43,886 nucleotides of DNA from a virus. Shown one piece after another: positions 9,962 to 43,886 of this stretch (its first letter is position 1; every line of letters starts with the position of its first letter). The notes below the pieces were generated by a model. The model was given only the letters and a program-made list of their open reading frames with translations, was not told the origin of the DNA and ran no database searches. The position numbers and the translations under genes are program-made. The stretch spans positions 1 to 43,886 of the IMG/VR virus record IMGVR_UViG_3300040801_001003; one strand, given 5' to 3'.

Positions 9962-11416
9962 CTAATAGGGCGAAATCGCGACCGACGTGTCGTCGACGAC
10001 GACGGTGTCGCGCGATGGCCGTGCGAGTGCCATATAAACCGCCTGGGCCAATGACCACGCCCAAAACTTGTCGGCGTGGTGTTTTTGGTTGCGGTCTGTG
10101 TCAAATATAACATTATTTGACGGTGATTTCAGTCGTTTAATGCTGTGAATTTGCAACCGCAATTCGCGATCAACTGGTATCGGTGCGCGCGCCTGTTCGA
10201 CGAGCATTTTGGTATCGGTCGCCCACAATAGTTTTGACGCGTTTGTGAAGTTCACACCGGCGACTTTTCCGGGGTGGTCGCGTTCGAGGTTTTCGGCCAA
10301 ATTCGCGCCGATGCCGTTGCGGTCGATATATGCACCGATCACCGGCAACGCGGTCACGACGCGCGCGATCACCGCCTCCTGGTTGTCAAACGGTTCGTTG
10401 TCCAATGTGATTGCAAGTCGCAACGGCAACGAATTCAACGTCGACACACCGACGACATAAATTTCCGTTGTGTTGCGAGTGCGACCGATGTCGACACCGG
10501 CGCACAATTGCTTCTCGACTTTTGAATCGTCGACCAGTTTTGCGAGTTCGTCGATTGCGTGCATCGCATCGTCGACGCCGGTCGCGAACAAACAGGGGCC
10601 GCGGTGCGCGGCTTCGATGGTTTTGATTTGTTCCCATGTTATGTATGCGGTCGCCTCGTCGACGAATGTTGATTCATATTCCTGTTGGAAATCCTCAGTC
10701 GGCATGTTTGCAAATATGACTTGCAAACGCGGTTCGCCGAACCGTTCGACACGTTCGGCCGTCGTCAACGTCGGCGCGATGATTCGCGCGACCGCGACGT
10801 CGGTGCAAAACGCGCGCACCTCCCACCACGGCGTCGACTTGCGAGTGTAGCCGGGATAGGGTCGAACCTGTTCGGAAAATATTTCCCAAAAACGACCACC
10901 GGCGCCCATCGGCGACGAACCGATTCGCAACCGTCGATTTGACTTTGTTATGACCGGCAGGATTGCGGTGTACACCTGTTGCGCCCACCGCATATGCGCG
11001 AATTCGTCGAGGTAAACGTGCATTTGCGCCTTGCCTCGCGATGGCACACCGGGCAGCGATATGAGTCGCGCGCCGTTTTCAAATTGCAATCGCTGCAAGT
11101 TGTCGAGGACGATGGTCGGTCGCATCGATGGTCGCATCGCGCGAATGACCGCATGCGCGTATCGTATTTTTTCCTGGGCCTCGTCGAGATTCATCGATTG
11201 AAACAATGACGATTCGCCATATAAAACAGCCGACGCGACCGCCTCGGCCGCCGTTATAAATGACCATGCAATTTGTCGCGCCTTGTTCTCAATACGGAAC
11301 ACCGAATCGTCGCACAAGTGCGCGATTTGAAAATGTTCCCACCGTGCGCCGGGATAATCGGCGGCGACTTCGAGGTCGACGTTTTCGATAAGGAATAACG
11401 CACGTTCAGTCAGCAT
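9962..11416 (-). CDS. Terminase large subunit (TerL)
   Basis: The product has 484 residues from ATG 11416 (inside the end of terS; a TTG one codon earlier is possible). The ATPase domain shows the terminase-type Walker A variant KARQIAWS at 45-52 and Walker B VYLDEFAHM around 134-142 (Asp137, Glu138), followed by a motor coupling motif IGSSPMG. The nuclease domain begins around 305 with GVDIGRTRN (Asp309), then IDRNGIG and a final AD.FWAWSLA segment containing another acidic metal ligand. TerL packages DNA into the procapsid through the portal and cuts it. Its gene follows terS and precedes portal, as expected. Confidence 0.92.
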   Translation of the reverse strand: MLTERALFLIENVDLEVAADYPGARWEHFQIAHLCDDSVFRIENKARQIAWSFITAAEAVASAVLYGESSLFQSMNLDEAQEKIRYAHAVIRAMRPSMRPTIVLDNLQRLQFENGARLISLPGVPSRGKAQMHVYLDEFAHMRWAQQVYTAILPVITKSNRRLRIGSSPMGAGGRFWEIFSEQVRPYPGYTRKSTPWWEVRAFCTDVAVARIIAPTLTTAERVERFGEPRLQVIFANMPTEDFQQEYESTFVDEATAYITWEQIKTIEAAHRGPCLFATGVDDAMHAIDELAKLVDDSKVEKQLCAGVDIGRTRNTTEIYVVGVSTLNSLPLRLAITLDNEPFDNQEAVIARVVTALPVIGAYIDRNGIGANLAENLERDHPGKVAGVNFTNASKLLWATDTKMLVEQARAPIPVDRELRLQIHSIKRLKSPSNNVIFDTDRNQKHHADKFWAWSLAQAVYMALARPSRDTVVVDDTSVAISPY

Positions 11417-12044
11417 CAAATAATTGCATCGTTTTCGTCACGTCGTCCAACCGTTTGCGCGCCTGTTCGCGCCACTCCTCGACGGTCATGCCGTCGTCGG
11501 TTTGCGCGACGTTCGCATCGATGCGATCACGTCGCCCGAACTGGTCGGGGTGACGACGTTCGAGCAACCACGCCGCCGCCTGCCATGTCCCTGAATTTGA
11601 CGCGGTGTCAATCGTTCGCAGTGCGTTATATTGCGCGGTCGCCTGTGCCTTTTTTAGTGCATCAAAAAACTCAAAATAAGGTTGTTCGCGTTCCCATTTG
11701 CGCGTGCCTGATTTGACGCGCGGTGACGACCGTCGTTCGGCTTCGACTTCGCCGCGATTGTACCAATTGCGCAAGGTCGCATAAGTCACACCGGCCAACG
11801 ACGCCGCCGCCTCGTAATACATGCCGCGCGAAACGGCCGTGACGATGATTTTCTGAACTTCGGGCGATAGTTTTGACGGTCGACCAGTTGCGCGCGGTTC
11901 GGTAACGACCGGCGGCGGTTCGCCGTTGTCGAGCGCCGCGTCGACAACGGCGGGATCATAGTCGGGGTGTTGAATCAAAAACGTTTGCCACCGGCGCAAA
12001 AACGTTTCACCGGCAGCGACCAAACGGTCACGGGATACAGGCAT
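11406..12044 (-). CDS. Terminase small subunit (TerS), probable
   Basis: The product has 212 residues from ATG 12044, which has GAGGTGG just upstream. After a linker, residues 55-110 (GRPSKLSPEVQKIIVTAVSRG, then YEAAASLAGVTYATLRNWYNRG) form a helix-turn-helix of the terminase small subunit type. The C-terminal half is helical (QPYFEFFDALKKAQATAQYNAL, then WLLERRHPDQFGRRDRI), also usual in this family: A....A.WlLERr.P..fgr. TerS recognises the packaging site on concatemeric DNA and hands it to TerL, which is encoded directly downstream and overlaps it. Confidence 0.85.
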   Translation of the reverse strand: MPVSRDRLVAAGETFLRRWQTFLIQHPDYDPAVVDAALDNGEPPPVVTEPRATGRPSKLSPEVQKIIVTAVSRGMYYEAAASLAGVTYATLRNWYNRGEVEAERRSSPRVKSGTRKWEREQPYFEFFDALKKAQATAQYNALRTIDTASNSGTWQAAAWLLERRHPDQFGRRDRIDANVAQTDDGMTVEEWREQARKRLDDVTKTMQLFDAD

Positions 12045-12086
12045 CGGCCACCTCATAAAATCGATGGCAGCAAACCAAATTCGTCA

Positions 12087-12165: not shown

Positions 12166-12822
12166 TCAATGACGACCGCGAACCAAATAAATCCAAGGCA
12201 TCGAAATCAACGTGACGCCGCCTTTGATCAAAACGTTCGACAACGCAATCGCGCCGACGACTGCCCACGGTAACGCACCACCGAACGCAATCAGTGAAAA
12301 CAACACCGAATCGATAGGAACCGACACCGCGTTCGATGACAACACGCGCGCCCACTGGTAACGGTGCGCGAACCGGTTCACCCATCGCTGGTACACTTCC
12401 CCATCGATGAATTCCGAAATCATTTCGGCGACGATTGACGCGACCACGATGCGCCACACCGGCGACAACACCGCGACGAATTCGGTTTGCACACCGACGG
12501 CCATGTCGGGCGGCAATGAACCGACGAGCAAAAACAACAACGCCATGACCAAATTCACGACCGCTGCAACGACTATGAGAAGGCGCGCGGTCGTCACGCC
12601 TGCGACTTTATGAACCATGTCGCGCAACGTGAACGTAAACGGGTAAACGAAGGTACCACCGTCGATTGACAAACCGCCGACGTTCACGATTCGCAACGAC
12701 GCGACGTCGGCTAATATTTGCGCCGACACGTAAAGCGATGAAACCAACGCGACCGCCTGTTGTCCTGCGAGTTGAAACCGGTTTGAATTCATTTGATTTG
12801 TTTCATTTGCTGCTTGTTGCAT
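12166..12822 (-). CDS. yhhQ: Queuosine precursor transporter, YhhQ/VUT family (phage-encoded)
   Basis: The product has 218 residues from ATG 12822 (AAAAGGA 9 bases upstream). It shows about six hydrophobic segments and the family landmarks: a start with VSSLYVSAQILADVASLRIV, then GGLSIDGGTFVYPFTFTLRD near residues 50-70, VAGVTTARLL, LPPDMAVGVQTEFVAVL, RIVVASIVAEMISEFIDGEVYQ, and NAVSVPIDSVLFSLIAFGGALPW. The GT.vYP.tF...D, S...s.f.D...y and VS...D...F...AF.G elements are those of YhhQ, which imports preQ0/preQ1. It lies directly after the ParB-DpdA gene, so it most likely supplies the base used for DNA modification. No precursor synthesis genes are seen in the window. Confidence 0.85.
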   Translation of the reverse strand: MQQAANETNQMNSNRFQLAGQQAVALVSSLYVSAQILADVASLRIVNVGGLSIDGGTFVYPFTFTLRDMVHKVAGVTTARLLIVVAAVVNLVMALLFLLVGSLPPDMAVGVQTEFVAVLSPVWRIVVASIVAEMISEFIDGEVYQRWVNRFAHRYQWARVLSSNAVSVPIDSVLFSLIAFGGALPWAVVGAIALSNVLIKGGVTLISMPWIYLVRGRH

Positions 12823-12846
12823 GATGAAATGTTTTCCTTTTGGTTT

Positions 12847-12868
12847 GGGCAGGTTTCCGCGACTGCCC
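12847..12868 (-). other. Hairpin in the leader of the transporter gene
   Basis: On the minus strand GGGCAG (12868-12863), a 10-base loop TCGCGGAAAC and CTGCCC (12852-12847) are followed by an A-rich tail that contains the ribosome binding site (AAAAGGA) of the transporter gene. The size and A-rich tail recall a preQ1-I riboswitch, but the conserved loop of that class is not present. Confidence 0.35.
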
Positions 12869-12897
12869 GTTGTGCGAGTCAATAAAAATCGGTGCAA

Positions 12898-14145
12898 TTA
12901 TTCGTCGTTTACGTCATGCGGTTCGCCCTCCTGCGCCGCGCCCGGTGCAACTGGTCGCGGGTATAGTTCATTCAATTTTGCACCCATTGCGCCAAACATG
13001 ACGGCCATCGAGATGACTTTGCCGTTCGTCGCCCACGGCAAACCGATGTCGGCCGGTTTGCCGATGCGTTCACCGTCGGGATCATACATTTCGCCCCACG
13101 TCGAAATATGGTTGCAATAATTGTGATCGAACGAAACGACGTCGGTGCCCAACGCGGCCATGAAATGCAATTGACGACGCCACGAACCGCCCAGGAGGTG
13201 AACGCGTCGACCGCGAAACCGGTCAACGTGCAACGGTGTCGAACCGTGCGACGTCGGCACCGAATAGCCAAGCATAAACCGTTCGGGAATTTCATCGATG
13301 CAATCATATTTCGGAATGACGATCACGTTTTCGACCAGTTGCGACAAATCGTCTGCCCATTTCATAATTTGGTCGAACGAATGGTGCGCGACGTTTTGCG
13401 CGACGCACTGGTCGCGCGTCATGATATCCATGACCGTTGCATATTTGGGGCGGTGTAATTCGATGCAAGCACGGTGCAAACCGTGATCGTATTGCCAATA
13501 GTCGTTGTCAATGAACGACACGTCATAAGGCGGTTTGAATTTCTCGGTCAATGCGAGTTTTTGCGATTGGAAACCCCACATGAAACCGGTGTCAATTGCC
13601 ATCGGCACATACGACGACCGCCAATTGGATAATGTGAATATTGCATCGATTGGCAAGTCGCGAGGCGACGGCATTTTAGCTGGCGCGTCGTATGCGTTCT
13701 CCTTTTCAAGTGCGGCGGCGATTTCGGCCGACATCGCGTTGACGTCGTCATCGGTGAAACCGGTCGGGAGGTCGGGGTCGATTGCGCGCAACGCGTCGAC
13801 CAGTGCATCGCGTGCCCACTCGGAAAGTTCGGCGGTGCGATTGTCTGCGATTGCAAAACCGACGGCCGTCATCGGGTCGTCGTCGACGATGACGGCCGCA
13901 ATATGCGACCAACCCAACGACCGCGCCGCGCGCAACGTGCCGTTGCCTGCCTCGACTTTCATGTTTTGCGTTCGGTTGACAATGATCGGTTTGCGTTGTT
14001 TGTAAACTCGCAACGACGCGGCGATTTCGTCGACGTCGTGGTCGGTGCGCAAATTCGCGGGATCCAAAACCGGCCGGTCAATAGGAATTGCGAGTGCGCG
14101 CAACGGTTCGACGATATAGTTCAAATCGGGCGAGGTGTCGGTCAT
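12898..14145 (-). CDS. dpdA: ParB-like domain fused to DpdA-type DNA 7-deazaguanine transglycosylase
   Basis: The product has 415 residues, start ATG 14145 behind AAGGACA. Residues 20-120 are a ParB/sulfiredoxin-like domain: PANLRTDHDVDEIAASL, IIVNRTQNMKVEAGNGTLRAA (GNGTLRAA at 67-74). From about 165 it resembles the TGT-fold phage DpdA proteins: FIDNDYWQYDH at 211-221, HRPKYATVMDIMT at 231-243, VIVIPKYD at 274-281, MLGYSVPTSHG at 291-301, RVHLLGGSW at 314-322 and FDHNYC at 339-344. DpdA swaps guanine in DNA for a 7-deazaguanine such as preQ0. It is followed by the YhhQ transporter. The ParB part may steer the enzyme to DNA or use nucleotides; that is inference. The exact modified base cannot be read here. 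Confidence 0.82.
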   Translation of the reverse strand: MTDTSPDLNYIVEPLRALAIPIDRPVLDPANLRTDHDVDEIAASLRVYKQRKPIIVNRTQNMKVEAGNGTLRAARSLGWSHIAAVIVDDDPMTAVGFAIADNRTAELSEWARDALVDALRAIDPDLPTGFTDDDVNAMSAEIAAALEKENAYDAPAKMPSPRDLPIDAIFTLSNWRSSYVPMAIDTGFMWGFQSQKLALTEKFKPPYDVSFIDNDYWQYDHGLHRACIELHRPKYATVMDIMTRDQCVAQNVAHHSFDQIMKWADDLSQLVENVIVIPKYDCIDEIPERFMLGYSVPTSHGSTPLHVDRFRGRRVHLLGGSWRRQLHFMAALGTDVVSFDHNYCNHISTWGEMYDPDGERIGKPADIGLPWATNGKVISMAVMFGAMGAKLNELYPRPVAPGAAQEGEPHDVNDE

Positions 14146-43489: not shown

Positions 43490-43791
43490 GCGAGGGCTAA
43501 CCAATCGGCGCGCGTTGCGCGTCGATTCGGTTTTGAGGAGGGGCGGCGACCAGTGCGCGCACCATTGCGCGCACGGCCACCACTGTTTTGACGTGCGTTT
43601 TCGCGTGCATCGTTTTCCTCAGAAATGCCGATGAACGCGACCGCGACGTCAAATTGAAAAGCGACGAACGCGTCGCTAATTTGTAACAGTTGCGACGGCC
43701 TTATCCCGTAACGTTTTGCCGTCGCGTCGACGATCACCATTTGTTCCCGATTGCTGACGAAATCGGTCCAACGCTGCCGCCGGAGCGTTCG
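43468..43791 (-). CDS. Tail assembly chaperone extension (GT-like), probably made by +1 (or -2) ribosomal frameshift
   Basis: This frame is open from just after a TGA at 43794-43792 to the TGA at 43470-43468 and overlaps the end of the short chaperone in the +1 frame. It encodes VDATAKRYGIRPSQLLQIS followed by DAFVAFQFDVAVAFIG and a basic tail. The pattern RYG..PS.LL..... D.A is characteristic of the second half of gpG/gpGT chaperones. The continuation DRF-VSNREQMVIVDATAKRYG makes a sensible fused protein, so a shift near the codons CGA TTT CGT (TTT at 43762-43760, a possible slip of tRNA-Phe from TTT to TTC) is plausible. An ATG at 43740 could instead start it separately, but no good ribosome binding site precedes it. 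The shift site is inferred. Confidence 0.62.
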   Translation of the reverse strand, partial: RTLRRQRWTDFVSNREQMVIVDATAKRYGIRPSQLLQISDAFVAFQFDVAVAFIGISEENDARENARQNSGGRARNGARTGRRPSSKPNRRATRADWLALARMTRKG

Positions 43792-43886
43792 TCAACTGAA
43801 AAATGAATGACCGATCAGATAACGGGATGTCGTCGATATGAATCGCATCGCGCGCGTCGTCGCGGTCGCCGTCATACAACGGCGGG
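43676..43886 (-). CDS. Tail assembly chaperone (gpG-like), C-terminal part; joins base 1
   Basis: This open frame enters at base 43886 in the phase left by the frame at 269-1 and ends at the TAG at 43678-43676. It holds IHIDDIPLSDRSFIFQLTN and AAALDRF, followed by a hydrophilic tail that ends in VATVTN. The overlapping +1 frame downstream encodes a second conserved segment, so this tail is what one would expect of the unshifted short product. The join across the window ends is an inference from matching phase and sense; no stop intervenes. If the ends do not join, both pieces are partial genes. Confidence 0.72.
   Translation of the reverse strand, partial: PPLYDGDRDDARDAIHIDDIPLSDRSFIFQLTNAPAAALDRFRQQSGTNGDRRRDGKTLRDKAVATVTN

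Follow-up and report, generated by a model that had tools for sequence, protein, structure and literature searches.

The DNA analysed here, referred to as the window, is the complete IMG/VR virus record IMGVR_UViG_3300040801_001003, which has 43,886 bases and is classed as linear by IMG/VR. It carries two adjacent genes that form a putative DNA-modification module next to the terminase genes:

12898..14145, minus strand: ParB-DUF6610 fusion gene, proposed DNA-guanine transglycosylase (415 aa; PF20314 3.4e-34, ParB-like PHROGs, AlphaFold model)
13696..14097, minus strand: ParB-like N-terminal domain, proposed DNA-targeting part (approximately aa 17-150; phrog_723, Foldseek; Pfam below cut-off)
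12934..13668, minus strand: DUF6610 domain (aa 160-404; 8-strand barrel; domain model, invariant residues)
12166..12822, minus strand: YhhQ/QPTR (COG1738) 7-deazaguanine precursor transporter (218 aa with the likely start; PF02592, TIGR00697, start region)
11406..12056, minus strand: terminase small subunit (TerS), next gene downstream of the module (phrog_4102 6.6e-33, gene contexts)
9962..11419, minus strand: terminase large subunit (TerL; PHROG terminase matches)

Profile matches confirm that the two module genes named in the initial annotation are real and adjacent. Both open reading frames are intact and have the codon composition common to the terminase and portal genes of the window. 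The order module, TerS, TerL recurs at four other loci (L003, L009, L051 and L053). No preQ1 riboswitch or other RNA was found at the window module. At L003:8427-8491 there is a match to the Rfam int-alpA RNA, barely above the gathering score.

The larger protein belongs to Pfam family PF20314 (DUF6610; 3.4e-34, 118.7 bits against a cut-off of 27, aa 183-357). It had initially been described as a DpdA-type transglycosylase, a description that holds for the fold and fails for the sequence. The protein has no match to phrog_887, the canonical phage DpdA, nor does the canonical DpdA HMM match it, and DUF6610 shows no link to the sequence profiles of canonical DpdA or tRNA-guanine transglycosylases (TGT; hhalign probability 0.3%). 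A canonical DpdA by sequence is therefore ruled out. AlphaFold models the full-length protein with a mean pLDDT of 84.2 and the DUF6610 domain with a pLDDT of 93.4 and a pTM of 0.90, as a barrel with eight main strands. When the domain model was compared with the PDB using Foldseek, 49 of the best 50 matches were tRNA-guanine transglycosylases (best match E 4.5e-5, probability 1.00; TM score by query length up to 0.60). A fold search of a viral library also matched the model to a phage DpdA of the canonical type, from Arthrobacter phage Mufasa8. By its predicted barrel, DUF6610 falls within the TGT/DpdA superfamily; with no link between the sequence profiles, this is an assignment by fold.

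Seven residues (D213, D240, K279, S295, H316, D340 and N342) are invariant in 28 DUF6610 relatives, and the window protein keeps all of them. In the model, D213, D240 and D340 sit at the ends of strands 3, 4 and 8. Matched to TGT by strand order, they fall at what we take to be the positions of TGT D102, D156 and D280, with numbering and strand placement as we assume them. D340 is the likely nucleophile of the modelled barrel and D213 its likely general acid/base.

The N-terminal part of the fusion is a ParB N-terminal domain according to PHROG profiles (phrog_723, 6.2e-23, aa 29-152) and to the fold, as Foldseek matches the full-length model to ParB/Noc with a probability of 1.00. Pfam ParB_N scores 20.9 bits, under its own cut-off of 26.3. 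The sole match in defence libraries was that of the window ParB part to a methyltransferase profile. A separate ParB gene adjoins canonical DpdA and preQ0 genes in the phages Phantasmagoria (Rosebushvirus), Sonali and Mufasa8, so ParB commonly accompanies the DNA transglycosylases of phages. One related contig, L042, has a second DUF6610 copy that is fused to a DNA N6/N4 methylase and lies beside YhhQ and QueF (L042:15289-17085). The fusions of DUF6610 to ParB and to this methylase point to DNA as the target. In another relative, DUF6610 is fused to a putative metal-binding CxxCxxCC domain (L030:9464-11050), which stands alone in the module of mycobacteriophage Knocker (gp4, L044:2544-3185). 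Both occurrences score under the Pfam cut-off, and the domain may be a further component of the modification pathway.

The second gene was proposed to encode a YhhQ-type transporter, and profiles bear this out, with PF02592 (Vut_1; 4.5e-36, 125 bits) and TIGR00697, the 'queuosine precursor transporter' (99.7 bits), both exceeding their cut-offs of 27.2 and 50.95, respectively. The listed reading frame (12166-12897) is over-extended by its TTG start at 12897. An ATG at 12822 is preceded by AAGGA and, judged from this sequence, is the likely start. A search of PDB sequences with the window YhhQ gave no match. The protein scores 33 bits against PRK11212, the equivalog for E. coli-type YhhQ, which demands 252, and the exact substrate can hence not be transferred from E. 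coli. The E. coli member imports both preQ0 and preQ1 (PMC5372724), while the Bartonella transporter prefers preQ1 and that of Chlamydia takes queuine (PMC11130926). Among relatives of the window, the YhhQ copies of L015, L030, L035 and L037 are short or divergent.

Whole-record searches of the window found no QueC, QueD, FolE, QueF or radical SAM protein (QueE), and Pfam searches with the 52 other open reading frames gave no queuosine genes among the matches listed (25/30 families). This agrees with the initial annotation, which had noted no synthesis gene in an apparently full genome. The ends of the record speak for its completeness. A tail-assembly reading frame, flanked by the major tail protein and the tape measure, exits at base 3 and resumes in frame from base 43885 (ends 1-269 and 43676-43886), an agreement expected by chance in one of three cases. 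Joining the two halves raises the scores slightly, from 13.0 to 18.3 bits for phrog_6280 and from 19.4 to 20.4 bits for phrog_4336, a tail assembly chaperone. Despite its linear label, the window is probably a near-complete, circularly permuted genome, and the absence of synthesis genes is thus probably real. Relatives of its portal and terminase proteins come from mixed hosts and indicate no single host.

When viral contigs were searched, the window enzyme by itself retrieved no relative. Relatives were instead reached through a YhhQ search and small alignments. A DUF6610 alignment run against viral contigs gave 31 loci, which were scanned by profile for neighbouring YhhQ; as the seeds were importer-type, the locus counts are not frequencies. 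In most relatives, DUF6610 adjoins genes for precursor supply, its neighbouring slot being taken by YhhQ or else by a cassette of QueF-QueC-QueD-QueE-FolE. YhhQ is the neighbour of DUF6610 in L003, L004, L005, L007, L008, L015, L020, L024, L029, L051 and others. It occurs without any synthesis gene in the window as well as in L003, L004, L005, L008, L015, L020, L024, L029, L030, L035 and L037, and with QueF as the only synthesis gene in L042. Conversely, six records (L017, L021, L025, L026, L028 and L033), searched over their whole length, contain QueC, QueD, FolE, QueF and QueE without YhhQ, and the short contig L023 has QueC, QueF and FolE without it. Across 27 non-redundant records, which are not independent of each other, the exclusion between YhhQ and at least three pathway genes has a Fisher p of 0.0019, and that between YhhQ and QueC alone a Fisher p of 0.013. 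Mapped onto the DUF6610 phylogeny, the mode of supply changes at least four times.

This alternation is a tendency and not a law, because Streptococcus phage MS1 and HCTV-16 carry synthesis genes and YhhQ together. L034 combines YhhQ with QueF and QueC and has no QueD, QueE or FolE; such a phage might take up an intermediate from further along the pathway, for instance CDG, and complete the synthesis itself. Neither importer nor synthesis genes were found in six DUF6610 records (L019, L027, L036, L038, L041 and L043). Five of them (L027, L036, L038, L041 and L043) are contigs of 39-100 kb, and these phages presumably rely on the base of their host. The module also appears in metagenome-assembled genomes. 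A Chloroflexota contig (L051) carries ParB-DUF6610, YhhQ, TerS and TerL in a row. A Peptococcaceae contig (L053) has YhhQ, QueF, ParB-DUF6610, TerS and TerL, and the sole QueF found in that genome is the copy within this locus. In 400 Chloroflexota genomes, most matches covered the ParB part only. The DUF6610 part was matched in two (G040 and G376), and one of the two copies in G376 has a stop codon.

The same layout exists with a different enzyme. In L009 and L010, the genes follow the order ParB, canonical DpdA, YhhQ, TerS and TerL, and in L012 and L013 the order is YhhQ, canonical DpdA and ParB, followed by the terminase (terminase calls at these four loci were made by eye from gene order and sequence). 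Two transglycosylases that are dissimilar in sequence hence share the slot beside YhhQ. This is the best indirect evidence on the role of DUF6610, and suggests that it does the same job as DpdA and is served by YhhQ.

Taken together, we consider it probable that the two genes form a salvage-type module for 7-deazaguanine DNA modification, combining import through YhhQ, ParB-targeted base exchange by DUF6610 and protection from nucleases. Phage YhhQ, inserted in the host membrane, would raise the supply of queuosine precursor, either preQ1 or preQ0 that host QueF reduces. The ParB-like domain would dock the fused enzyme on DNA, where the DUF6610 barrel would work by the mechanism of TGT, removing guanine and inserting the imported 7-deazaguanine in its place. 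Phage DNA modified in this way may then resist host nucleases. The model builds on observations, namely the transporter family, the TGT fold of the predicted structure, and the adjacency, recurrence and alternation of the genes; from these we infer that the enzyme acts on DNA, that preQ1 is the base, which residues are catalytic, and that the modification protects from restriction or CRISPR. The original proposal of a transglycosylase paired with an importer in place of synthesis genes is thereby strengthened by the DUF6610 fold, the recurrence of the pair and its near-exclusive alternation with the cassettes.

With regard to the base, all DUF6610 viruses seen with preQ0 synthesis genes also possess QueF, which converts preQ0 to preQ1. 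In the DNA of the archaeal virus HVTV-1, dPreQ1 replaces about 30% of G; no DpdA was recognised in this virus, and the authors invoked a DpdA of the host (PMC6884629). Together with the substrates of the QPTR family, this makes preQ1 our first guess and preQ0 our second, so that preQ1 appears the likelier base of the window module.

An alternative is that DUF6610 assists in the pathway by tailoring, removing or targeting 7-deazaguanines, and leaves their insertion to a host DpdA or to other phage DpdA. DUF6610 indeed lacks a sequence link to DpdA and coexists with canonical DpdA in the mycobacteriophages Knocker, Funsized and Rinkes, where it could act differently. We nonetheless regard this as unlikely. 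The predicted fold of DUF6610 is that of TGT, profile searches found no canonical DpdA in the window, L051 (4 kb) or L053 (21 kb), and the DNA of HVTV-1 is extensively modified although no DpdA was recognised there (PMC6884629).

Alternatively, phage YhhQ may feed the tRNA queuosine pathway of the host and so aid translation, with DUF6610 as an incidental neighbour. Members of the YhhQ family do serve queuosine salvage for tRNA (PMC5372724; PMC11130926), and phage preQ0 genes without DpdA have been proposed to boost Q-tRNA (Hutinet 2019, PMC6884629). Against this, several phage groups show YhhQ tied to ParB, terminase genes and two sequence-dissimilar DNA transglycosylases, and the position of YhhQ is occupied in other phages by a synthesis cassette. 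In addition, none of the QueA, QueG and tRNA TGT families is among the Pfam matches listed for the window, and we judge this explanation to be quite unlikely. Very unlikely is a module that is non-functional in the window phage for want of a base from host or environment, as might be argued from phage Orion, whose DNA is unmodified despite its DpdA (PMC6884629), since neither window gene is disrupted, their codon composition is that of the terminase and portal genes, and the invariant residues are retained.

We return to the import-and-exchange module as the preferred reading. In a broader form, DUF6610 would be a second family of DNA-guanine transglycosylases, with no sequence similarity to DpdA detected and preQ1 as the usual base. 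Its phages would switch time and again between making and importing this base, and one class of viruses would depend, for the protection of its genome, on nucleobase taken up from beyond the infected cell; here we see the chances as evenly balanced. If the model is true, DUF6610, a family of unknown function, gains a likely function and could be the transglycosylase still missing from HVTV-1, and phages devoid of synthesis genes would have a way to modify their DNA nonetheless. From the alternation, one would expect such phages to be protected only in places where they can obtain the base, for instance from neighbours or from cells in decay. The evasion of host defence would thereby be tied to nutrient exchange.

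Phages with DpdA and no synthesis genes had been reported before, as had phage YhhQ (Hutinet 2019, PMC6884629), which renders the initial idea less novel than it seemed. What is new is the strong linkage, the make-or-import alternation and the evidence for DUF6610 as a transglycosylase. Like the window, the DpdA-only phages have a base-swap enzyme without preQ0 synthesis genes; unlike it, they use canonical DpdA and have no linked importer reported (PMC6884629). Uptake of exogenous base was suggested for them as one possibility, and phage YhhQ showed no correlation with any phage group (PMC6884629). Fusobacterium phage phiFN37 comes close to the window in having ParB, a transglycosylase and YhhQ together with no adjoining synthesis gene. 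Its transglycosylase, however, is canonical DpdA, the order is ParB, DpdA, DUF6884, YhhQ (DUF6884 gene at L076:5523-5954), and a radical-SAM gene lies elsewhere in the part of the record examined.

Knocker, Funsized and Rinkes encode a full-length homologue of the window enzyme, the ParB-DUF6610 protein gp1 (32-33% identity over 80-85% of the query), near the terminase. In these phages, QueF, canonical DpdA, QueC, QueD, QueE and FolE take the place of YhhQ. The haloviruses HVTV-1, HCTV-1 and HCTV-16 (Druskaviridae) likewise carry DUF6610 within a 7-deazaguanine cluster; in HVTV-1 it is gp69, beside FolE, with QueE, QueD, QueC and QueF further along. HCTV-1 and HCTV-16 share YhhQ with the window. 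All three differ from it in their full synthesis set including QueF, in their archaeal hosts and in that no ParB domain was detected in the DUF6610 protein. Cui et al. (NAR, 2023) reportedly described a DpdA4 subfamily of transglycosylases from archaeal viruses in which DpdA had previously gone unrecognised. DpdA4 is possibly the same as DUF6610, whose archaeal members that work would then already cover. Compared by description, DpdA4 is said to be specific to archaeal viruses, whereas the kind found in the window belongs to bacterial phages, is fused to ParB and is linked to an importer.
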